From: Thermoplasmata archaeon
GTDB lineage: Archaea > Thermoplasmatota > Thermoplasmata > Thermoplasmatales > Thermoplasmataceae
Assembly (NCBI GenBank): GCA_021816965.1
Contig: JAKAWU010000003.1
Location: 1 to 59,045 of the forward strand
DNA length: 59,045 bases
Direction: 5' to 3'
This document shows, piece by piece, positions 1,333 to 59,045 of the stretch. How positions within the stretch are numbered: position 1 is the first letter of the stretch; each line of letters starts with the position of its first letter. The notes under the pieces are model-generated. The model did not search any database, was not told where the DNA came from, and saw only the letters and a list, made by a program, of their open reading frames with translations. The position numbers were made by a program, and so were the translations under genes.

Positions 1333-2617
1333 ACGCTATCTGAGCCGATTCTTGAATACCTTCTGACACAGTTGGATGTGGATGAATAGTTGCTCCAATA
1401 TCCTCAACATTAAGGCCTGCCTCTATGGCAAGGGAAAGTTCAGAAATCATTTCTGAAGCATGTGGGGCAGCTATGGCAGCTCCAGTGACTGTACCATCAT
1501 TAGTGTAGTAAATGGTATAGAATCCCTGGGACATGTTGAGCCCCTGGCTTCTCCCGTTAGCGGCTATTGGGTATCTGGTGCTCTTTTCGCTCTTTGCTCC
1601 AGTGAATGCGACTTCCGGGTCTGCAAACACTACATAAGGCATAGCGTAGTAACCAACCGTTGTATTCTTTCCACTAATGTTATCCGCAACTATTTCTCCT
1701 TCGTAGAATGCTTTGTGTGCAAGCATCGCACCTCCAGTCACATCTCCAACTGCATAGACTCCCTTCTCGCTGGTTTCCTTGTGGTTGTCAGTTTTTATGG
1801 CGCCATTCTCCATTTCCAGTTTGAGGTTTTCCAGTCCAAAGCCTTCCACATTTGGCTTTCTTCCAATTGTAAGAAGAACATAATCTGCAGAAAGGTTTGC
1901 ACCAGATTCCATTCTCACATAGTATCTGTCCCTCTTCTCGACTGCAGCTACCTTAGCAGAAATCATGATCCTTATTCCAAGTTCCTTCATTCTTCTTTCA
2001 ACAGGTTTTACGAGTTCAGTTTCAAATCCTGATAAAATTCCGGGAAGCATCTCAATCAGGGTAACCTGTGTTCCTAGTTTTGCAAATGCAATACCTAGTT
2101 CAACGCCTATATAACCTCCACCAATGATGATGAGATCCTTTGGAATTGTTTTAAGGTCCAGAATTTCCTTGTTGTAGAGAATGTCCTTAAATTCTGCCCT
2201 CTGAATCGGCAAAGATCCTGTTGCAATCACAAGTTTATCGCATGTATGTGTCTCCTGTCCTACCTTTATGTGCTGTTTATCAACAATGTGTGCATCACCC
2301 TGTATAATTTTCACACCAAAGGCTCTGCACAAAGTTTCAACTCCGGAAACAAGCCTGTTAATCATGGTCCACTTCCAGTTCTGCCACTGGGACATGTCCA
2401 CATTATAACTCATTCTTACACCCGGGAGTGTTTTCAGATATCCAAGGCTGTTTGCCATTTCTATGAGTGCTTTTGAGGGTATGCATCCATAATTGAGGCA
2501 TTCTCCTCCTATCTTATTCTTTTCCACAAGAAGGACGGTTTTACCTTTCTGTCCCAATCGTATGGCCGTAGAGTATCCCCCGGGCCCCCCACCTATTACT
2601 ATGACATCAAATTTCAT
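1298..2617 (-). CDS. lpdA: Dihydrolipoamide dehydrogenase (E3)
   Basis: GGGPGGYSTAIRLGQKGKTVLLVEKNKIGGECLNYGCIPSKAL redox disulfide motif; C-terminal HPHPTVSEG. Confidence 0.95.
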   Translation of the reverse strand: MKFDVIVIGGGPGGYSTAIRLGQKGKTVLLVEKNKIGGECLNYGCIPSKALIEMANSLGYLKTLPGVRMSYNVDMSQWQNWKWTMINRLVSGVETLCRAFGVKIIQGDAHIVDKQHIKVGQETHTCDKLVIATGSLPIQRAEFKDILYNKEILDLKTIPKDLIIIGGGYIGVELGIAFAKLGTQVTLIEMLPGILSGFETELVKPVERRMKELGIRIMISAKVAAVEKRDRYYVRMESGANLSADYVLLTIGRKPNVEGFGLENLKLEMENGAIKTDNHKETSEKGVYAVGDVTGGAMLAHKAFYEGEIVADNISGKNTTVGYYAMPYVVFADPEVAFTGAKSEKSTRYPIAANGRSQGLNMSQGFYTIYYTNDGTVTGAAIAAPHASEMISELSLAIEAGLNVEDIGATIHPHPTVSEGIQESAQIAYGKPLHFKPIS

Positions 2618-2621
2618 TTTT

Positions 2622-3968
2622 TCACCGTACCAGGAATGTTATAGGGTTGTGCAGGTATTCCCTAACCTTTGATATGAATCTGGCAGCGTCTGCTCCGTCT
2701 ATTAGCCTGTGATCACATGACAGGGATATATATGTATTCACACCATCAAACGGTCTGTGGACAGCAAGAATTGCAACTTCTGGGTAATTTATGATTGGCG
2801 TGGACAACACACCGCCTATGGTTCCAACATTGGACAATGTAAAGGTAGAATCCTGAACATCCTGAAGTGAAAGCTTATTCTCTCTTGCCTTCTTTGCAAG
2901 TTCAGCTATTTCTTCTGAAATCTGCATAACTGACTTATTGACAGCATCCTTCACAACAGCCACTGTAAGACCATCAGGAGTGTCAATTGCGACACCTATA
3001 TTAACAACCTTTTTGAAGATATATCTCTTGTTTACCTCATCAAAGTGTGCGTTGAATTTAGGAAATTCAGTCAGGGCAACAGCTACTGCTTTGACAAAGA
3101 AAGGTGTCATTGTGACCTTGACTCCCTTTTCCTTAAACTCATTGAGTGATTTTGTGATAAGTTCGGTATTTATCGTTTCCGCTACCATGAAATGAGGCAT
3201 GATCTGCTTTGATTTAGTCATCTTCTCGTAAATAATTCTTCTAAGACCTTTCGGTTCGTATATCTGGTCGGATTCTGATATTGCAGCTTTTTCTTTTCCT
3301 GTATGTGCCGATGTTTCGGATACTTTTGCGACATTTTGGTCAGCAGGTTCTAATGGCTTTGCTTCTGATGCATTTGATTCAGCAATCTGGTTCTGCTCTT
3401 TTGAAGGTTCCGCAGTTGGAGGCGGAGTTTCAACCTTTGTCTCTTTTCTTTCCTTTAGTTCCTTTTCTGTTCTGTCAAGATCCTCTATTGTTATTCTTCC
3501 ATTTGGACCTGTAGGTTTTACCAAGTCAATGTCAATGTTCCTCTCTCTTGCAAGCCTCCTTATGGTTGGTGTTGCTAAAGCTTTTCTTTCTCCAGGTTTT
3601 TCATCCATATTATTTTCTCCTCCCTTTTCTTTATTATGAGTTTCTGTTCCTGGCACTGATTGTTTTTCAGGTTTTTCCTCATGAATTGGTTTTACGGGTT
3701 CTTTCTTTTCCTCCACATTTGGTTTCCCGTCGTCAATTTCTATGATCTCCTCTCCTACCTTGACTACTTTCCCGGCAGGGTAGACGAGTTTCAGTACTTT
3801 CCCCTCTACCGGGGAAGGTATGCTGATATTGACCTTATCGGTCATTATCTCTACCATTTCCTGATCCTTCTTAACTGTCTGGCCTTCAGATACGAGCCAC
3901 TTAATTATTTCCCCCTCTGTGACTCCTTCACCAATATCCGGTAACTTAAACTTAAACATTTCGATCAC
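2622..3968 (-). CDS. 2-oxoacid dehydrogenase dihydrolipoyl acyltransferase (E2)
   Basis: Lipoyl domain (EIMTDKVNISIPSP), E3-binding domain (ATPTIRRLARERNIDI), catalytic SCDHRLIDGADAARF. Confidence 0.95.
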   Translation of the reverse strand: MIEMFKFKLPDIGEGVTEGEIIKWLVSEGQTVKKDQEMVEIMTDKVNISIPSPVEGKVLKLVYPAGKVVKVGEEIIEIDDGKPNVEEKKEPVKPIHEEKPEKQSVPGTETHNKEKGGENNMDEKPGERKALATPTIRRLARERNIDIDLVKPTGPNGRITIEDLDRTEKELKERKETKVETPPPTAEPSKEQNQIAESNASEAKPLEPADQNVAKVSETSAHTGKEKAAISESDQIYEPKGLRRIIYEKMTKSKQIMPHFMVAETINTELITKSLNEFKEKGVKVTMTPFFVKAVAVALTEFPKFNAHFDEVNKRYIFKKVVNIGVAIDTPDGLTVAVVKDAVNKSVMQISEEIAELAKKARENKLSLQDVQDSTFTLSNVGTIGGVLSTPIINYPEVAILAVHRPFDGVNTYISLSCDHRLIDGADAARFISKVREYLHNPITFLVR

Positions 3969-4939
3969 CTGAATTCTTGAACTCTATTTATGGCTTTCAG
4001 TATTCTTCCTTCATTTGGCATGTAATATTCTTCAAGCTTATACGGAAAAGGTATATCAGGTCCGCATACCCTCAGTATGGGGGCCATTAGATAGTCCACA
4101 GCTCTCTCTCCAATGAAGGCAGATATTTCCGCTCCCATACCAAGTGTTCTCGGGGCCTCGTGGACTATTATCAACTTTCCTGTTTTCTTGACAGAGTTTA
4201 AAATGGTCTCACCGTCATATGGCATTATCGTCCTGAGATCAATTACATCCGCATCAATAGAATGCTTTGTCACTGTATTTACAACAATGGGAACCATAGA
4301 GCCATAGGTGACAAAGGTCATTTTACTCCCTTCATGAACAAGTGCAGCTTTCCCAATGGGTATGCTGTATTTCTCATCAGGGACATCAGATTTGATGCTT
4401 CTGTAGAGTCTTTTTGGCTCAAGGAAAATAATTGGATCTTTGGATTTCATCGCTGAGATCAGAAGTCCTTTCGCATCGTAAGGATTTGAAGGTGAAAGTA
4501 CAGTCAAACCGGCTGTGTGAGCAAAGTAGGCTTCACCGCTCTGTGAATGGTATAATCCTCCCCTGATTCCCCCTCCATATGGTGTTCTAAGAACCATAGG
4601 AACGTTGTATTCTCCACCACTTCTGTATCTCATTTTTGCAGCCTGATTAACAATCTGGTCAAAGGCGGTAAATATGAAATCCTGGAACTGAATTTCAGGA
4701 ACAGGTTTCAAGCCGGTCAATGCCATTCCAATGGCCATTCCCACAATTCCAAGCTCCACCAGAGGTGTATCTATAACCCTTTCAGATCCATATTTTGCCT
4801 GGAGACCTTCTGTTACCCTGAAAACCCCTCCATCTTTTCCGATATCCTCACCTAAAAGAATGATAGAATCGTCTTCTTTCATAAGCATATCCAAAGTGGA
4901 GTTTATTGCCTGAACCATGTTTAATTGTTTTGAACTCAT
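3965..4939 (-). CDS. 2-oxoacid dehydrogenase E1 beta subunit
   Basis: LLGEDIGKDGGVFRVTEGL, YGGGIRGGLYHSQSGEA; between E1 alpha and E2. Confidence 0.95.
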   Translation of the reverse strand: MSSKQLNMVQAINSTLDMLMKEDDSIILLGEDIGKDGGVFRVTEGLQAKYGSERVIDTPLVELGIVGMAIGMALTGLKPVPEIQFQDFIFTAFDQIVNQAAKMRYRSGGEYNVPMVLRTPYGGGIRGGLYHSQSGEAYFAHTAGLTVLSPSNPYDAKGLLISAMKSKDPIIFLEPKRLYRSIKSDVPDEKYSIPIGKAALVHEGSKMTFVTYGSMVPIVVNTVTKHSIDADVIDLRTIMPYDGETILNSVKKTGKLIIVHEAPRTLGMGAEISAFIGERAVDYLMAPILRVCGPDIPFPYKLEEYYMPNEGRILKAINRVQEFR

Positions 4940-5928
4940 AATATCTCCTCCTTTTCCTCGTCAATAATCCAATTGTTTTTCTCGTACACATCAGTGAACA
5001 TGGTGTCAGGACTTGGTGCAGGCAATTTTTCCCTTTCATCGAATATTTTTTCTATATTGTCCTTGGCATCGGATTTAATTTTTTCAATCTCCTCTGCAGT
5101 AAGGTAATTATGTTCAATCATCTTCTTCTCTGCAATGGTAAGGGGATCTTTCTCACTTCCATCCGTTATTTCAGCTGTACGGTATTTGTTTGGATCATCT
5201 GAGGTCGAATGGGGCCCTATTCTATAACTCACTGCCTCTATAAGTACAGGTTTTTGCTCCTTCCTGACTCTCTCTACTTCTTTCTTGGCAGTTTCATACA
5301 TAGTGAAAAGATCATTGCCATCCACCTTCAACCCTTTCATTCCATAAGCATCTGCTTTTTTCCAAATTTCGACCTTCGTCTGTTTTTCAACAGGGAGTGA
5401 AATTGCCCATTTATTATTCTCACAAAGAAATATAACTGGAAGATCAAAAACTGCAGCCAGGTTCATTGCAGCATGGAAATCTGGCGTAGAAGTTGAACCA
5501 TCACCGAATGTTGTAACTACAATGTTGTTTTTCTTTCTGTATTTTATCGCATAAGCTGCACCAGTTGCAGGGGGCAGGTTAGTTGCGACAGGACTCTGTA
5601 TAGACATAAAATTATACTGTTTGGAACTGAAATGCGAGGGCATCTGCCTCCCTTTCTCGATATCAGAGCTATTCCCCATTATTTGATCTATTATTGTTGC
5701 CGGTGGAACACCCCTGTGGAGCATGAAAGGAACATCCCTGTAGTACTGATAAACGATGTCTTCATTTTCAAGAGCCATAGATAATCCAATCTGGAGGGCT
5801 TCCTGACCTATGGTAGGAGTATAAAATCCAACCCTGCCCTGTCTCTGAGCCATAACAATTTTTCTGTCAAGTGCTCTTGAAAGAGCCATAGCCTTGTATG
5901 CTTTCACAAACATTTCTTTTTCATCCAT
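4936..5928 (-). CDS. 2-oxoacid dehydrogenase E1 alpha subunit
   Basis: TPP motif TFGDGSTSTPDFHAAMNLAAVFDLPVIFLCENN; GPHSTSDDPNKYR. Confidence 0.95.
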   Translation of the reverse strand: MDEKEMFVKAYKAMALSRALDRKIVMAQRQGRVGFYTPTIGQEALQIGLSMALENEDIVYQYYRDVPFMLHRGVPPATIIDQIMGNSSDIEKGRQMPSHFSSKQYNFMSIQSPVATNLPPATGAAYAIKYRKKNNIVVTTFGDGSTSTPDFHAAMNLAAVFDLPVIFLCENNKWAISLPVEKQTKVEIWKKADAYGMKGLKVDGNDLFTMYETAKKEVERVRKEQKPVLIEAVSYRIGPHSTSDDPNKYRTAEITDGSEKDPLTIAEKKMIEHNYLTAEEIEKIKSDAKDNIEKIFDEREKLPAPSPDTMFTDVYEKNNWIIDEEKEEIL

Positions 5929-8761: not shown

Positions 8762-8911
8762 ATGGTTTCAGAGGGAATAGAAGATTACAGCAAGATACCA
8801 GTTGAAAAAGTTAAATTCAGCAAGGGGATCAAGGTAGCTTTCTGGTTTCTTCGAATTTACATAATTTTAATGGTATTACTCGTGATTGTAGGTTTTTCGC
8901 ATGTTGTTTAA
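8762..8911 (+). CDS. Small single-TM protein; may extend upstream to 8686 through a frameshift
   Basis: MVSEGIEDYSKIPVEKVKFSKGIKVAFWFLRIYIILMVLLVIVGFSHVV; not in the supplied ORF track because it is short. Confidence 0.45.
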   Translation: MVSEGIEDYSKIPVEKVKFSKGIKVAFWFLRIYIILMVLLVIVGFSHVV

Positions 8912-9008
8912 CTCTTGTGAGCGAGAAATCTGACAGTCTTTATGAGTGGGAGGATGTAACACTCATCCCTGCTTGCCTGATAATTTCAGGTAACATTTGA
9001 TGTTTTAT

Positions 9009-9024
9009 GAATCCAGTCAGCCCC
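9009..9024 (+). repeat. Partial tRNA-Ile 3'-end duplicate, candidate att core (copy 2)
   Basis: gaatccagtcagcccc, one mismatch to 6984-6999, no surrounding tRNA. Confidence 0.5.
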
Positions 9025-9153
9025 TTTTTAGGAAATCCAAGACTTAGGTGTCTGAAATGTTACCAGCTTTTTTGAATCTATTTCTCATTTCCCAATAGGC
9101 AGAAATGTGTGACTGCATAAAAATAAATATATCAATGATTAATTAGTTTTGTA

Positions 9154-10146
9154 GTGTTAAACAGAATCGGCATCAGGCAAATGATTGCAGGTGTTGCCTT
9201 CCTTGAGATTCCTGCTTTAGTTTTGGCGTATATGGTCAATTTTGTTTCTCTCCCTTTCTTTTATTTTATTCTCATTGTCTGGTCCGTTTTGATTCTGACT
9301 ACCTGGCTCTTCCTTATAACCCTGGTTGGTCACTCCACTCATCTGAGAAATGCATTTTTTGCACTATATTTTCCTGAAGCATCTCTATTCACCATGATAG
9401 CTTTTCTTCCACAGATTGGCTCTTTCAATCAACAAGTCATGTTGGTTCTATCATGTGTAACTATATTGGCATATCTCATTCCTTTTGGAATTATGCTCAA
9501 ATCTGGAACCAGGGAGATGGAGACAAAATCCTACATTGATGAAGCAATGACTGCACGACTCAGGGATCTTGTAGGGAAAAATCATAAAGTAATACCAGAG
9601 GTCCATATTATGCCTGCCCCGATTTATGGAAAAACTCATCTTGTTTCACAGGACATTCGTGCAAAGAGAATCCTCATCACGAAACAGCTTGCAGAAACTC
9701 TGACAAATGATGAAATGAATGCAGCATTGTGCAATGCATACTATATCGTAAAGTCAAGATGTTCTGTTAAAAACCTATTTGTTCTCTTCACTCCACTTGT
9801 TGCGTTGACTGACTTATTCGTCTATTTTATCATGGGAGGTTCTCCTTCATTAGGTGTTTTCCTTGTTCCTCTAACTGGTGTGTTACTTGTGTTGAGTATT
9901 ATACTTTTCCCATTACTTTCCATTGTTCTATTTGCAAAATTAAATCATATATACACCATTAATGCAGATAGGTTTGTAGTAAAAATTACAGGCAATGTTG
10001 CATCTCTTCTTTCGTCTCTCAACAAAATCCATACGATTCAGGGAAATATAACAACCTCGGACAGCAAACTCGTACAGAAATTTGTAAGTGGAAATGAGAA
10101 GTTCTACATTAAAAGAATTATGAAGCTGGAGAAGATACAAATGTAG
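9154..10146 (+). CDS. M48/HtpX-like membrane protein lacking the zinc-binding motif (GTG start)
   Basis: RILITKQLAETLTNDEMNAALCNAYYIVKSR aligns by eye with HtpX 'LL..L..DEl.aVlaHELsHi.nRD'; HExxH replaced by CNAYY; later ADRFVVKITGN. Confidence 0.6.
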   Translation: MLNRIGIRQMIAGVAFLEIPALVLAYMVNFVSLPFFYFILIVWSVLILTTWLFLITLVGHSTHLRNAFFALYFPEASLFTMIAFLPQIGSFNQQVMLVLSCVTILAYLIPFGIMLKSGTREMETKSYIDEAMTARLRDLVGKNHKVIPEVHIMPAPIYGKTHLVSQDIRAKRILITKQLAETLTNDEMNAALCNAYYIVKSRCSVKNLFVLFTPLVALTDLFVYFIMGGSPSLGVFLVPLTGVLLVLSIILFPLLSIVLFAKLNHIYTINADRFVVKITGNVASLLSSLNKIHTIQGNITTSDSKLVQKFVSGNEKFYIKRIMKLEKIQM

Positions 10147-52905: not shown

Positions 52906-54825
52906 ATGGAGATCAGAAAGAATCAAAAAAATGGAGTATTCACTGTATGTTATGGAAACAATCATGATCATGTAAGATACAGAGCAGGGGCTGCTTCAAA
53001 GGTGGATGAGGGAGAAATTCCCTTAAAATTCACCATCTCCTCTTCTGAAGTGTATTCAGAATTGAAAATTCCACTTTCCTCAGATGACCATATAATCGGG
53101 CTCGGAGGAAAAGCACTACCGGTGGAGAAGAAGAGGACGCAGAGCACCTTCTGGAATACGGATGTTTATGGATACAGAAACGGCTCAGATCCGCTCTATC
53201 TTTCAATTCCATTCTTCTATATCGTGAACAGGAATGGGAGCACTGGAGTTTTCATCGATTACCCCGGAATGATAAAGATGGATTTTGGCGTAGAGAAATA
53301 TGATTACATAAATATAAGGGTGATTTCAGTTGATTTCGACATATATGTTATAACTGGAAATTCTCTAGAGGAAATACTAAGGAAATATCTTGACATAACT
53401 GGCCATCCATCCGGAATCCCTTCATGGATGTTCCGGCACCAGGTATGCCGTTATTCGTATTCACCACAGGAATCCGCAATGAATGTTCTCAGGAAGTATA
53501 TTGAAGTTTTCGGAAAAGATTCAGTGGGGGCCATATACCTGGACATAGATTATATGGATGGATACAGGAACTTCACTGTCAGCAGAGAAAATTTTCCAGA
53601 CATGAAAGGTTTCATAATGGGCTGTCATGAAATGGGCGTGAAAGTCATACCGCTGGTCAATCCGGGCATTAAGATAGATCAAAATGATGAAACTTTCCTT
53701 GATGGGCTTGGCTCATATGCTGAGACAGGCAATGGAGAGATATATATTGGGCATTCGCACGCAGGGGCCAGTGCTTATCCCGACTTTCTGTCAGAGAAAG
53801 GGAAGGAATTCTGGCACAGACACATAAAAAAATTCCTCGAATATGGCTTTGATGGCATATGGCTGGATATGAGCGAACCAACGGTGAAGAACAGCAAGGG
53901 CACATTCGATCATGATGTGATGCACAGAGTAAAGGGAGAAAAGATAAGGCATGAGAAAATACACAACCTGTATGCACTGGAGCAGGCAGAGATCACCAAG
54001 ACTGCAGTGGGGAATGACAGGATTGTTCTTGCAAGATCAGGATATCCGGGAATACAGAGATATGCTGTGATGTGGACAGGTGATGGAGAGGCTGGTTATG
54101 ATAACATGGCTCTTCAAATCCCACTTATAACTTCCATGGGCATCACGGGAATGCCTTTCGTTGGTTGCGATCTTGGTGGCTTCCTTGGGAAAACAACACC
54201 AGATCTTCTTCTGAAATTCTATTTAATGGCATTATTCTTCCCACTATATCGGAATCATAAAGAAAAGCACGAATCTGACGGCGAACCGTACACATTTCCG
54301 GAGCCTTATGTGAACAAGTTCAGGAATATCATAAAACTGAGGAACGCAATAATTCCACATCTCCTTTGGAAAGCTGCCTGTGCTGTGGAGAATCTTGATG
54401 CATTTCTGAGGCCTATCAGTTTCAATTATCCGGGAAATGATGGTTACTTCAGTATTGATGATGAATACATGGTTGGTGAAGAGATACTTGTGGCCCCTAT
54501 GCTTTCAAAAGATCTTTGGGAGAGAAATATTATTCTTCCTGAAGGAAGATGGTACTGCCTCGAAGATGGAAATATATATGGAGGAGAATCTCTCATCCGG
54601 TATTCAGGGGAAATGCCGTTTTTCCTCAGGGAAGGAGCAGTATTTCTGATGGAAGGCAAAATATTGTTCTTTGGCAGGTTCAGTGGAAGGATATACATCA
54701 GGGAAAAATGGGTGAATATGGAATATGATGGTGAATCTGTGAAAGAGGGGTTTGAAAATATGAAGGGAATAACTGTGATTGACGTGGAAAAGGAAAGGCC
54801 AAAACTTCATTTTTTGACAGGATGA
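52906..54825 (+). CDS. GH31 alpha-glucosidase
   Basis: AIYLDIDYMDGYRNFTVSRENFPDM, FDGIWLDMSEP catalytic Asp, WTGDGEAGYDNM, PFVGCDLGGFLG. Confidence 0.93.
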   Translation: MEIRKNQKNGVFTVCYGNNHDHVRYRAGAASKVDEGEIPLKFTISSSEVYSELKIPLSSDDHIIGLGGKALPVEKKRTQSTFWNTDVYGYRNGSDPLYLSIPFFYIVNRNGSTGVFIDYPGMIKMDFGVEKYDYINIRVISVDFDIYVITGNSLEEILRKYLDITGHPSGIPSWMFRHQVCRYSYSPQESAMNVLRKYIEVFGKDSVGAIYLDIDYMDGYRNFTVSRENFPDMKGFIMGCHEMGVKVIPLVNPGIKIDQNDETFLDGLGSYAETGNGEIYIGHSHAGASAYPDFLSEKGKEFWHRHIKKFLEYGFDGIWLDMSEPTVKNSKGTFDHDVMHRVKGEKIRHEKIHNLYALEQAEITKTAVGNDRIVLARSGYPGIQRYAVMWTGDGEAGYDNMALQIPLITSMGITGMPFVGCDLGGFLGKTTPDLLLKFYLMALFFPLYRNHKEKHESDGEPYTFPEPYVNKFRNIIKLRNAIIPHLLWKAACAVENLDAFLRPISFNYPGNDGYFSIDDEYMVGEEILVAPMLSKDLWERNIILPEGRWYCLEDGNIYGGESLIRYSGEMPFFLREGAVFLMEGKILFFGRFSGRIYIREKWVNMEYDGESVKEGFENMKGITVIDVEKERPKLHFLTG

Positions 54826-55043
54826 GACTCTCTGTCAAAAAGCACTGCACCATAAAGCAGACCCGTGACGAGGCCACCTTCCGGCATTGAAAGAATGAAC
54901 ATGATCTTGATATTGTTCCCTGCAGTGAGCATATAACCAATGAAACCAAAAATCAGGCCAATCAGGAGCCCTATACTCATGAACTTTATGAGTTTGTCCT
55001 CATTCATTATAGGTAATGGCATCTTCGAATAAATCATTTTCAA
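54807..55043 (-). CDS. Small two-TM protein
   Basis: 78-aa ORF with two hydrophobic Gly-rich segments. Confidence 0.5.
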   Translation of the reverse strand: MKMIYSKMPLPIMNEDKLIKFMSIGLLIGLIFGFIGYMLTAGNNIKIMFILSMPEGGLVTGLLYGAVLFDRESHPVKK

Positions 55044-55170: not shown

Positions 55171-55710
55171 TCAGTAAGCATCCTCTGTCTTGGAAACGTT
55201 ATCTTCCTTCTTTTTCTTTGCCTGGGAATCCGGGCCTCCTTGCTTTATATCATTTATTTTGCCCTCTCCGAGATTCTGAAGCATGTCTCCAAAAAAGTCT
55301 CCTATCCTTTCATTTTCCAGTATGGCCTTGTCAAGTTCACTTTCCATGCCTGCCATCCATGAAACATTTACCTGTCCATTATTCATTGATTTTATGAATG
55401 TCTTCATTGTTTCTGCGAAGTCGTTCATTACAGATGACTGTGACCTCATCATTTCCATGTCCTGGACAATGAGTATGAATGATTTTATTTTGGCTGCCTG
55501 TTCCTTCAGGTTTTCTGATTTCTGGATGAAATCATTGTAAAGTATTGTATTTCCTATCTCTTTCGCTTCCATTGCCTTTGCCGAATACATTTCAGCCATA
55601 CTCTGGCATTTCCTGGCATGATCCTCAGATTTTTTCTTGAGCATCTTTATGTTCATTGCAGTCTCAATATCTATCTCTTCCTTTGATTTCCTGTTGAGGA
55701 TACCCATCAC
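55171..55710 (-). CDS. Helical protein, candidate ESCRT-III/Snf7-like
   Basis: All-helical: MLKKKSEDHARKCQSMAEMYSAKAMEAKEIGNTILYNDFIQKSENLKEQAAKIKSFI then MNDFAETMKTFIKSMNNGQVNVSWMAGMESELDKAILENERIGDFFGDML; overlaps previous gene by ATGA. Confidence 0.65.
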   Translation of the reverse strand: MMGILNRKSKEEIDIETAMNIKMLKKKSEDHARKCQSMAEMYSAKAMEAKEIGNTILYNDFIQKSENLKEQAAKIKSFILIVQDMEMMRSQSSVMNDFAETMKTFIKSMNNGQVNVSWMAGMESELDKAILENERIGDFFGDMLQNLGEGKINDIKQGGPDSQAKKKKEDNVSKTEDAY

Positions 55711-56324
55711 ACCACATCCACATTATCATTTGTTTCTTCCCCTTCTGCCGCCTTTGGGATCGATTTAGTATACTCACGGGTCTTTTCAGAGGTTCCTCTC
55801 AGAGTATCCATATAAACGCTCATGGAATCCATGTTTTTCTCCAGATCTATCTCGCTCATCAGTATACCTCTCATGGAAGATTTGATTGAATCCATGTTCT
55901 TCCTGTTGCTGAAGAATTTATCCACGTTTGATAAGAGCTGTTGGCCGGAGATAACTGTATACATAGATCTTATAAGTGTCAGGAACTTATACCTGAGTTC
56001 CAGCTGGTGATATGAGATGGATTCCGAATCTATCTGTTTTCTGATGGTATCAACCTTTATATCCCACATTGTAGGTTTTCTCTCCACCAGTTCCTTTTCA
56101 GATTTCTTGAGAGATTGTATTTTTTCCTGTCCTCTCTCCATTATGACGTACATGTCCTGAAGATCATGAGTTATATTCTCTATGCCCTTCCTTCCGGTAT
56201 ATTTTTTTGATCCAAACTTCTGCCACATTGCTGAAAAACCAACTCCCCACTCTCTCTGCAATCCTGCATTAGAATACATGTCAAGAAGTTCATCCACTGA
56301 ATTTTTTTTCTTCATTACTTTCAC
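55707..56324 (-). CDS. Helical protein, candidate ESCRT-III-like
   Basis: Predicted coiled-coil hairpin plus downstream helices; 3-bp gap from CdvC-like gene. Confidence 0.6.
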   Translation of the reverse strand: MKVMKKKNSVDELLDMYSNAGLQREWGVGFSAMWQKFGSKKYTGRKGIENITHDLQDMYVIMERGQEKIQSLKKSEKELVERKPTMWDIKVDTIRKQIDSESISYHQLELRYKFLTLIRSMYTVISGQQLLSNVDKFFSNRKNMDSIKSSMRGILMSEIDLEKNMDSMSVYMDTLRGTSEKTREYTKSIPKAAEGEETNDNVDVV

Positions 56325-56327
56325 ACC

Positions 56328-57548
56328 TCAATTTGATGCAAATCTGTTTTTCCAGGAACTGTACTGGTTCAGCATGGCATCATCGCTGGCAGGTTTGGTC
56401 TTGATCATAGCATCCTGGAAATCCTGTTCCTCAAGGGGCCATACCCTGTAGTTGACTTTCATTCCGTTCTGAATACTTCCATCCAGTTTCTCAATAATAT
56501 CATTGTTTGCCCTTCTAAGCATATTCCTAATGGCATCAGAACACAGGTAGTAGAGGTCTCTCCCGGAAAAATTTACTGTTTTGGCTGCTATCTTTCCAAG
56601 ATCAACTTTTACCTGATAGCCCTTTGACTTCGTGTTTAGTTCAAGTATTTTTTTCCTTGTGGATTCATCTGGAAGCCCAATGTATATTTTCTTTTCAAAT
56701 CTCGATATGATTGCCTGATCAAGTTCCCATGGGGTGTTTGTTGCTGCGACGGTAAGAACAAAATCCTCTCCCGTGCTGAAGCCATCAAGCTGTCCTAAAA
56801 ACTGCTGAAGCACAGAGGTTGAATTCCTGTTGCTGTCATCCCTCTTCCTGACAAGCGACTCAATCTCGTCAATGAAAACCACGGAAGGGGACATATCCCT
56901 CGCAGTATCATAAAGTGCAGACACCAGCCTTTCCGAATCCCCGACATATCTCGAAAGAAGTTCGGACAGGGTTACGTTGAAGAATGTTGCCTCAATGTTT
57001 GAACTTATGGCCTTAGCGATGGTCGTCTTGCCTGTCCCCGGGGGGCCAAAAAGCAGTATATTTCTGAGTTTTGGTATGTTTATGTCTACATCCGGAGTGG
57101 CCATTGCAAAGAAAACTGCTTCCATTATGGCATTCTTTTCCTGGTCAAGTCCACCTATTTCTGACCACTTTACATTGGATTTCGAGATCAGGGCTTCAAT
57201 TCTTCCCCTGAATTCAGTTTCCATTTTACCTATGAGCCCATTATCCCCCTTTCCAGACGGTGCAGCAGGTTTCGCAGTTCCGGATTTATCTCCCGCAGTT
57301 CTTCTCGAAGATTTTCTTGCACCGCTTTCCATGTCAACGATCTTCTTTTCCCAGATTTTTATTATATCATTGTATTTGCTGCTGTACTTCTGATCCATCC
57401 CGCTTACAATTTTCAGGTTGCCTATGATTGCTTTGCAAAGAGAGGATGCCTTTGCAATGTCGCCTGCTTCCTCTGATGCACGCTCTGCCTTAATATCTTC
57501 GGAAATAACCTTCTTTATATTATCTATGGCAAGATAGTCTGTGCCCAA
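56328..57548 (-). CDS. Vps4/CdvC-like AAA ATPase with MIT-like N-terminus (TTG start)
   Basis: Walker A GPPGTGKTTIAKAI, Walker B VVFIDEIESL, NTPWELDQAIISRFEKKIYIGLPDE, Vps4-like C-terminus EEQDFQDAMIKTKPASDDAMLNQYSSWKNRFAS. Confidence 0.9.
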   Translation of the reverse strand: MGTDYLAIDNIKKVISEDIKAERASEEAGDIAKASSLCKAIIGNLKIVSGMDQKYSSKYNDIIKIWEKKIVDMESGARKSSRRTAGDKSGTAKPAAPSGKGDNGLIGKMETEFRGRIEALISKSNVKWSEIGGLDQEKNAIMEAVFFAMATPDVDINIPKLRNILLFGPPGTGKTTIAKAISSNIEATFFNVTLSELLSRYVGDSERLVSALYDTARDMSPSVVFIDEIESLVRKRDDSNRNSTSVLQQFLGQLDGFSTGEDFVLTVAATNTPWELDQAIISRFEKKIYIGLPDESTRKKILELNTKSKGYQVKVDLGKIAAKTVNFSGRDLYYLCSDAIRNMLRRANNDIIEKLDGSIQNGMKVNYRVWPLEEQDFQDAMIKTKPASDDAMLNQYSSWKNRFASN

Positions 57549-57554
57549 GACACA

Positions 57555-58144
57555 TCACTCCGCGGAGTCCTCCGCATTTTCCTTTGTTTCCCGGGTGTTA
57601 TTCTTTGTTTCGCCCGTTTCTCCCGGCATCAATTTTTCCCTATTTCTATCCATCTCTTCAAACATTTTCATATACTTGCCACTGGTTTCTTCTTCCTCAT
57701 CAAGCGCATCAATGTCAGAAATAGAATTCAGGAGTTGGTTCATCTTGTTTTCCTGGAATTTCTCCCTGACACGCCCTTTAGTAATTACTCCTTTCAGTTG
57801 AGCTCCACTTGTCTCTTCAGTTATTTTATCAATATTGTCAGTTCCTGTTGCCTTGGCGCGTTTTGTTTCCTTCATCACGCCCAGAGCCTTTCTATACTTC
57901 CGCATCCTTCTGTCAATATCAGAGATTTCTTTTTCAACAAATTCCAGATCCTGTGCGATGCTTTCTCTTCTTGCACCAGAAGATTCTGCACCTTCCTTAA
58001 AAAGATCATCGTATCTTTTCTTTTTTCTGTCTCTCTCCTTCTCCAGAACCGAAAGATCCGTTTCAGCTTCCAGAATCATCTTGTCAATGCTCTCAGATGA
58101 AGCAGTACTGAGATCGTTCTCTTTCTTTTTCTTGAATATGGCCA
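57555..58144 (-). CDS. Charged coiled-coil protein of the Vps4/CdvC operon
   Basis: MAIFKKKKENDLS...ILEAETDLSVLEKERDRKKKRYDDLFKEG...IAQDLEFVEKEISDIDRRMRKYRKAL helical hairpin, acidic C-terminus; ATG 58144 preferred over 58193. Confidence 0.7.
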
Positions 58145-58202
58145 TAAGGATCACTTCATCAATATAAAAAGAGATATAACGCTTTTCATTCAAAAAAGAG
58201 AT

Positions 58203-58523
58203 TTAACCTTTAAGGTAACCTATTAGGAAACCCACTGCAAATATCACGAGAGACAAACTTATTGTGGTTGTACTGTTTCCCGGGAGGACTTTTTCGATAT
58301 TAGTTATGATATAAGATATGTGATTTTGCACATTTGCCTCAAAGCTAGAGAGTGAAGCTGATGGAATGACTGAATAATTGATATATTCTGATAACAGGAC
58401 TGCTAGAATTATTAATAAAACAGACCACACTCCTTTTTTTATACCGAGCCCCAACAGTAAACCGTCCACAAAAATGAGCAACAGTAACACATAGGGATTG
58501 GTGAGGAGAGATGTTAAATCCAT
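58203..58523 (-). CDS. Small polytopic membrane protein upstream of the CdvC operon
   Basis: N-terminal hydrophobic pair (PYVLLLLIFVDGLLLGLGIKKGVWSVLLIILAVLLSEYI), soluble helix, C-terminal TM. Confidence 0.6.
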   Translation of the reverse strand: MDLTSLLTNPYVLLLLIFVDGLLLGLGIKKGVWSVLLIILAVLLSEYINYSVIPSASLSSFEANVQNHISYIITNIEKVLPGNSTTTISLSLVIFAVGFLIGYLKG

Positions 58524-58570: not shown

Positions 58571-58960
58571 TTAGTCAATTTTGATAGACTTGAAACCCTT
58601 TATTGGCACAGTAATTGTCAAAACACCATCAGTATATTTTGCAGTATGTTGGGCATCAGTTTCAACATCCACGGGGAGTCTTATTGTTTTGAAAATCTTG
58701 TCAGGCCTCTGATCGATATACACGTTATTTCTCTCCTCCGTTTTCCTGTTTGCAGAAATCTCTACAGAGTTTCTGTCAATTCTAACATGAATGTGTTTCT
58801 TTTCAAATCCGGGGAGTTCTGCTTCAATGATCAGATGTTCATTTTCTTCATACATTCTTATTGGAGGGTAGAGGTATGACATCACTTCCTTTGATCTTTC
58901 ACCAACATTTCTCATAAACTCATCAGCCATGAATTTTATTGGCCCATAAATTGTTGTCAT
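58571..58960 (-). CDS. Small heat-shock protein Hsp20/alpha-crystallin
   Basis: LIIEAELPGFEKKHIHVRIDRNSVEISANRK...KTIRLPVDVETDAQHTAKYTDGVLTITVP; MTTIYGP start preferred. Confidence 0.9.
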   Translation of the reverse strand: MTTIYGPIKFMADEFMRNVGERSKEVMSYLYPPIRMYEENEHLIIEAELPGFEKKHIHVRIDRNSVEISANRKTEERNNVYIDQRPDKIFKTIRLPVDVETDAQHTAKYTDGVLTITVPIKGFKSIKID

Positions 58961-59045
58961 AATAGCACTATGAGTACTTTTTATATAAATGTTATTTAGC
59001 TGATAATTGAACATCTAAAATTTATTCGATATCTTGAGAAATAAA

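Follow-up and report, generated by a model that had tools for sequence, protein, structure and literature searches.

On the minus strand of the 59,045-nucleotide stretch of Thermoplasmata archaeon DNA analysed here (contig JAKAWU010000003.1 of assembly GCA_021816965.1; hereafter the window) lies an operon for a predicted Vps4/katanin-type AAA ATPase (AAA1), an ESCRT-III protein (protein C; ESCRT, endosomal sorting complex required for transport), two further helical proteins (A and B) and a small membrane protein. On balance, gene neighbourhoods, profile comparisons and structure models favour the view that this operon supplies the ATPase and ESCRT-III half of a composite, GTPase-linked membrane-remodelling system of Thermoplasmatales, the GTPase half of which would be encoded at a second locus, L124, on contig C54 of the same genome. 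From 58,960 to 55,171 the genes of the window run in the order Hsp20, membrane protein, A, AAA1, B, C:

58571..58960, minus strand: Hsp20-family small heat-shock protein, 129 residues from the conserved start (the open reading frame opens at 59014); Pfam HSP20, expectation value (E) = 4.5e-13

58203..58523, minus strand: small membrane protein, 106 residues, about three transmembrane segments by hydropathy

57555..58145, minus strand: protein A, 196 residues from the conserved start at 58145 (open reading frame 57555-58193), helical, with an acidic tail

56328..57548, minus strand: AAA1, 406 residues, predicted Vps4/katanin-type AAA ATPase with a helical N-terminal domain at about residues 1-75

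55707..56315, minus strand: protein B, 202 residues from the conserved ATG at 56315 (alternative GTG start at 56324), with an acidic tail

55171..55707, minus strand: protein C, 178 residues, ESCRT-III family member (open reading frame 55171-55710)

The five genes from the membrane protein to C lie where a first-pass annotation had placed them, and the gap of 6 base pairs that it gave between A and AAA1 is there as well. Its gap of 3 base pairs between AAA1 and B is obtained only if B starts at the GTG (12 base pairs from the conserved ATG), and the junction that it read as an ATGA overlap of B and C is GTGA or TGATG in the window, the ATGA form being seen in relatives only. The window genome is 85.5% complete and in 77 contigs. 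Searches of Pfam and NCBIfam returned no family for A, B, C or the membrane protein of the window.

The assignment of C draws on its predicted fold and on profile comparison. The AlphaFold2 model contains three helices (residues 9-51, 54-109 and 115-150), and its best seven matches in a Foldseek search of the PDB are all ESCRT-III proteins (several structures of CHMP1B, and CHMP2A/CHMP3; probability 1.00 or 0.99), the top one being CHMP1B at E = 8.5e-4; Vipp1, Asgard ESCRT-III, PspA, Snf7 and CdvB follow. As a reference for Thermoplasmata ESCRT-III we took the proteins found via Pfam Snf7 in loci L054-L057, which match human CHMP3 at E = 3.5e-6. In hhalign comparisons C aligns to this reference over 160 columns (98%, E = 1.9e-13); the controls, GrpE and three other helical sets, reach E = 0.035 or worse, and all pairings with ESCRT-III other than that of C give E values of 0.035 or more. 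In some genomes C is also picked up by the canonical ESCRT-III profile itself (1e-7 to 1e-14), while Pfam Snf7 matches one of nine C members (E = 0.00097, below its cut-off) and a PDB sequence search with the C profile gave no match. Predicted fold and profile scores together indicate that C is an ESCRT-III protein, in keeping with one part of the initial proposal that the three helical proteins are divergent ESCRT-III proteins or adaptors.

For A and B the same proposal of ESCRT-III membership is not supported. Against the ESCRT-III profile A scores E = 0.035, equal to unrelated coiled-coil controls, and B scores E = 0.084, also at control level. AlphaFold2 predicts for B a helical hairpin and three short helices (pLDDT, the predicted local distance difference test, 78.5; pTM, the predicted TM-score, 0.73), and a Foldseek search of the PDB with this fold found no significant match (best E = 0.43), with CdvB at rank 20. 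On the B fold search and the control-level profile scores we rejected the candidate reading that assigns every one of the three helical proteins to ESCRT-III. Neither A nor B is detectably a member of that family, and they form two separate conserved helical families, that of A carrying a KYMxMFxEMD motif. Homologues of both are found in the distant genus g21 (hhalign 96.9%, E = 1.5e-10 for A; 75%, E = 2.6e-5 for B), where they hold equivalent places in a combined locus described below.

A further occurrence may lie in a different class of the phylum, where locus L176 (G319:C11:1-12000, at 1480-5507 and 8910-10106) holds an operon for two helical proteins, an AAA1-related ATPase and two tubulin/FtsZ-family proteins. 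The best matches of the two helical proteins, both weak, are to A (E = 0.0018) and B (E = 0.0024), and an A-B-AAA1 trio would thus seem to recur there beside tubulin-like GTPases.

AAA1 matches Pfam AAA at E = 9.5e-38. With the NCBIfam CdvC model, which has a cut-off of 650, it scores 183.5 bits along residues 26-404, slightly more than with CDC48 (179.3 bits). Searches of PDB sequences for homologues of the ATPase are dominated by CDC48 because its two domains are summed; the best single-domain matches of AAA1 are FIGL1 (183.5 bits, versus 146.8 for a CDC48 domain) and the katanin MEI-1. Walker A and B are intact and the protein carries ATNxPWxLDxAxxSRFEKKIY. Its sensor-1/arginine-finger segment reads ATNTPWELDQAIISRFEKKIYIGLPD, which we take to be of Vps4/katanin style, and the motif SRFEKKIYIGLPD is presumably a signature of the Vps4 group; RPGRFD-like versions of the segment occur in canonical Thermoplasmata Vps4 and in two further ATPases met with below, AAA2 of relatives' operons and AAA3 of L124. 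A tree of the ATPases contains three supported groups, namely AAA1 with one distant-class ATPase (G319), AAA2/AAA3/canonical Thermoplasmata Vps4 (support of 100/99 for each of these two clades) and CDC48/PAN; its branches are long, the relation between the groups is uncertain, and its sample is without named TACK, Asgard or eukaryotic Vps4 references. These data identify AAA1 as a predicted Vps4/katanin-type AAA ATPase. Its separate clade excludes a recent copy of Thermoplasmata Vps4, the Vps4-like enzymes being AAA2 and AAA3, and the separate clade and single domain exclude PAN or CDC48. The MIT-like N-terminus initially ascribed to AAA1 is not supported by these comparisons: Pfam MIT has no match in any AAA1 and weak matches in AAA3 of nearly all genus genomes, and in hhalign the AAA1 N-terminus stays at control level against the MIT-like domains of its sister ATPases (E 0.013-0.032), whereas AAA2, AAA3 and canonical Vps4, compared with each other over their N-terminal domains, give E values of 1e-5 to 5e-8.

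Homologues of the small membrane protein adjoin canonical ESCRT-III/Vps4/arCOG07400 loci in other genera of the family, with profile matches in L055, L056, L057, L125, L118 and L119. In an alignment with the homologues from canonical loci, 21 of about 106 columns are invariant and a DGLxFGLxIKKG...K-G pattern is common to all. The link to ESCRT that had been proposed for this protein is therefore well founded, and its neighbourhoods mark it as a predicted general ESCRT partner in the family; a substitute for CdvA specific to this operon is ruled out by its presence at the canonical loci.

The order Hsp20, membrane protein, A, AAA1, B, C is found at ten loci in ten genomes of the genus used for comparison (Cuniculiplasma and kin, Thermoplasmatales), partially so at contig ends, and the operon order is present in further genera too (L115, L116). 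Because the same order repeats in this way the operon is more than a chance arrangement, and the synteny survey bears out the suggestion of a conserved operon of a Vps4-type ATPase with ESCRT-III. Within the genus, identity to the window proteins is 28-96% for A, 22-91% for B, 46-93% for C and 58-97% for AAA1. The conserved unit is larger than the five-gene run first described. Hsp20 stands at this upstream position in the ten genus loci, making it a conserved neighbour and a candidate, though unproven, member of the system, and in seven of the ten loci a second Vps4-like ATPase, AAA2, directly follows C. AAA2 is missing from the window genome and from its close relatives G008 and G004, and in these genomes C ends about 12-26 residues early, without a C-terminal amphipathic motif that a tail comparison finds in nearly all other C proteins (Phi-xx-[RK]-Phi-xxx-Phi-[KR], which is MIM1-like with a different spacing). 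The joint loss of tail and ATPase suggests, without proving, that the C tail serves AAA2; the correlation is imperfect, as G063 keeps the tail and has no AAA2 beside C. Most AAA2 proteins (L031, L032, L034-L037) have themselves lost the tryptophan of pore loop 1 (QWFG to N[RK]FG or SRFG), so that AAA2 may translocate only weakly or act as a regulatory subunit.

The evidence for a GTPase half comes from L124 and its relatives. L124 encodes an ESCRT-III paralogue, four larger proteins of 470, 554, 535 and 622 residues, and AAA3, which is Vps4-like and has a weak MIT match. The 535-residue protein is a multi-pass membrane protein that matches DO-GTPase2 (PF19993) above the cut-off, at E = 2.6e-12, and is a double-GTPase with intact motifs (GxxxxGKT, DxxGE, TKxD). 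The 554-residue protein is GAP1-N2-like, the 470-residue protein has a weak HEAT match, and the 622-residue protein belongs to a family of about 620 residues common to the GTPase loci; no FNIII match was obtained among the L124 proteins scanned with Pfam. A set of this type adjoins a window-type operon in G007, G049 and G063, and in g21 the genes for ESCRT-III, the membrane protein, A-like and B-like proteins, GTPase, GAP1 and the 620-residue protein form one locus. In G037 the GTPase and A genes reach one contig end, and AAA1, B and C begin another contig. Among the 77 genomes of the family, C is present in 16, being gained and lost inside genera, and each of these also carries the GTPase (Fisher 1e-14). 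Since relatives are not independent, a test within genera is fairer: in four genera of patchy occurrence, six genomes have both C and the GTPase, 11 have neither and 0 have one only (p = 8e-5). As far as gene content can tell, the ATPase/ESCRT-III half and the GTPase half are fused in several genomes and have been gained and lost together.

Outside this setting the GTPase keeps other company. A rule that DO-GTPase always accompanies ESCRT was rejected, as in family f11 of the same class (L142, L145) DO-GTPase2 lies near DnaK/Hsp70-type proteins and without ESCRT genes, an archaeal case of the bacterial GAP1-N2 Hsp70 theme. In G009 a 798-residue protein with a second, divergent DO-GTPase domain is encoded directly beside an ESCRT-III paralogue (L127:6960-9356), and in G059 a 644-residue TPR protein, perhaps a variable partner of the system, lies between GAP1 and Vps4-like genes (L120:11152-13086).

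In a GTPase-linked remodelling system of this kind, C and its paralogue would polymerise on the inner membrane at a site fixed by the membrane protein and perhaps by B, and AAA1, partnered by A and B in the role of filament proteins or adaptors, would together with the Vps4-like ATPases dismantle the polymer stepwise. Upstream, the GTPase/GAP1 pair at the membrane could switch the process or supply force to it. This scheme is inferred throughout, in its polymerisation and contacts as well as in its regulation. Several observations weigh against such a system. In the window genome the two halves are on different contigs and are linked only through homology. The GTPase occurs without C in two incomplete genomes, and G050, an incomplete assembly, has AAA1 with no GTPase detected. 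The GAP1-N2-like match in L124 (PF20013, E = 0.0058) is below the curated cut-off. The model of C is of moderate confidence (pLDDT 66.6, pTM 0.43) with TM-scores to ESCRT-III of about 0.3-0.55, and the fold search with B and the search for MIT in AAA1 count on the same side.

What a GTPase-linked system would most likely bring about in this acid-loving, wall-less archaeon is budding, the shedding of vesicles, remodelling of the surface or repair of the membrane, and not primary division. Within the order only Picrophilus has a cell wall (PMC6336744), and the wall-less state of the others agrees with a part in shedding, repair or surface remodelling; primary division is made less likely by two FtsZ-family genes in the window genome and by the lack of CdvA (PF18822), which, as had been surmised at the outset, has no match in this roughly 86% complete genome while a Sulfolobus control is positive. 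A more specific version is plausible, if somewhat short of probable: a GTPase-gated ESCRT machine in which the double-GTPase and GAP1 control an ESCRT-III polymer worked by two or three Vps4/katanin-type ATPases, and in which A and B make up a new filament or adaptor class that also occurs with tubulin-family GTPases in a distant class. If true, archaea would have a third type of ESCRT architecture, next to the Cdv and the adaptin/ubiquitin-linked types.

The same genes might instead serve cell division, as a Cdv-like divisome that accompanies FtsZ or follows it (final abscission), CdvA being replaced by the membrane protein or B. ESCRT-III and Vps4 do drive division in TACK archaea, and Makarova et al. 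2024 (PMC10936438) consider the minimal Thermoplasmata ESCRT likely to act in division in genera that lack FtsZ; set against the FtsZ-family genes and missing CdvA of the window genome, and an occurrence of C that is patchy inside genera and so unusual for an essential divisome, a divisome is an unlikely account. We regard it as quite unlikely that ESCRT-III and Vps4 form a membrane-acting or repair effector of DO-GTPase/GAP1 in conflict or defence, triggered by viruses, membrane attack or ARMAN epibionts. DO-GTPase/GAP1 sets have been described as nucleoside triphosphate-dependent conflict systems (PMC7159879), ARMAN-type archaea attach to Cuniculiplasma (PMC6336744), and the all-or-none, patchy distribution inside genera would suit such a role, but the loci examined contain no toxin-like effector domain (PADLOC was not searched), no genome of the Cuniculiplasma-like genus lacks the GTPase, which is steadier than most defence loci, and the Hsp20 neighbour is a housekeeping protein. 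Least probable is that two independent systems are merely neighbours, with A, B and AAA1 as a non-ESCRT AAA machine that severs or unfolds a different helical filament, the ESCRT part being C together with AAA2 or the second locus: the apparent recurrence of the trio without recognised ESCRT-III at L176, the presence of C, A-like and B-like proteins without AAA1 in G056 and G060, and the MIT result for AAA1 speak for it, but in the genus the B and C genes abut or run into each other, in g21 those for A, B and C remain in one locus although AAA1 is absent, and the membrane protein ties the operon to canonical ESCRT loci.

A GTPase-linked system of the kind we favour shares parts with three known ones. 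The minimal Thermoplasmata ESCRT, given in the survey by Makarova et al. (PMC10936438) as Vps4, ESCRT-III and the beta-barrel protein arCOG07400, is found in the same order of archaea, its ESCRT-III is homologous to C, its Vps4 groups with AAA2 and AAA3, and the same small membrane protein occurs at its loci. It differs in that the window system adds A, B, the GTPase, GAP1 and the 620-residue protein and has in AAA1 an ATPase of a different lineage; neither the window locus nor L124 has an arCOG07400 gene, which is present only at canonical loci such as L054, L055 and L056, and one member of the genus, G005, holds both systems (L054). Crenarchaeal Cdv likewise combines ESCRT-III and a CdvC-like ATPase in a single operon, but in the window genome CdvA is missing, FtsZ-family genes are present, AAA1 falls far short of the CdvC cut-off and A and B are new partners. 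The membrane double-GTPase of L124 and the adjacent GAP1-N2-like protein resemble DO-GTPase/GAP1-N2 systems (Kaur et al. 2020, eLife, PMC7159879), whose known GAP1-N2 themes have tubulin, Hsp70/GrpE or kinase/phosphatase partners; the ESCRT link is the difference, ESCRT being unmentioned in that paper.

Thermoplasmata ESCRT, that of C. divulgatum included, is already published. The DO-GTPase/GAP1 coupling, the AAA1 lineage, the A and B families and the membrane protein are not found in the main text of the ESCRT survey (PMC10936438), the DO-GTPase paper (PMC7159879) or the PSP paper, whose supplementary tables may list some of the genes, and the literature searched contained no GTPase-ESCRT coupling in archaea. 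The main text of the C. divulgatum proteome paper names Hsp20 (CSP5_0928) and none of the neighbouring genes. The survey terms the Thermoplasmata ESCRT minimal, and the set described here is richer: ESCRT-III comes as two paralogues, there are two or three ATPases of Vps4 type, and a dedicated membrane protein, a linked GTPase in the membrane and the new helical families of A and B are present as well. Reasoning on the origin of eukaryotic membrane traffic draws on archaeal ESCRTs, and Cuniculiplasma divulgatum, being cultured and wall-less, allows their role in cells that have FtsZ to be tested directly. Finally, downstream of C in the window, a 78-residue protein with one hydrophobic segment is encoded at 54807-55043 on the minus strand and is kept in G008 and G001 only.

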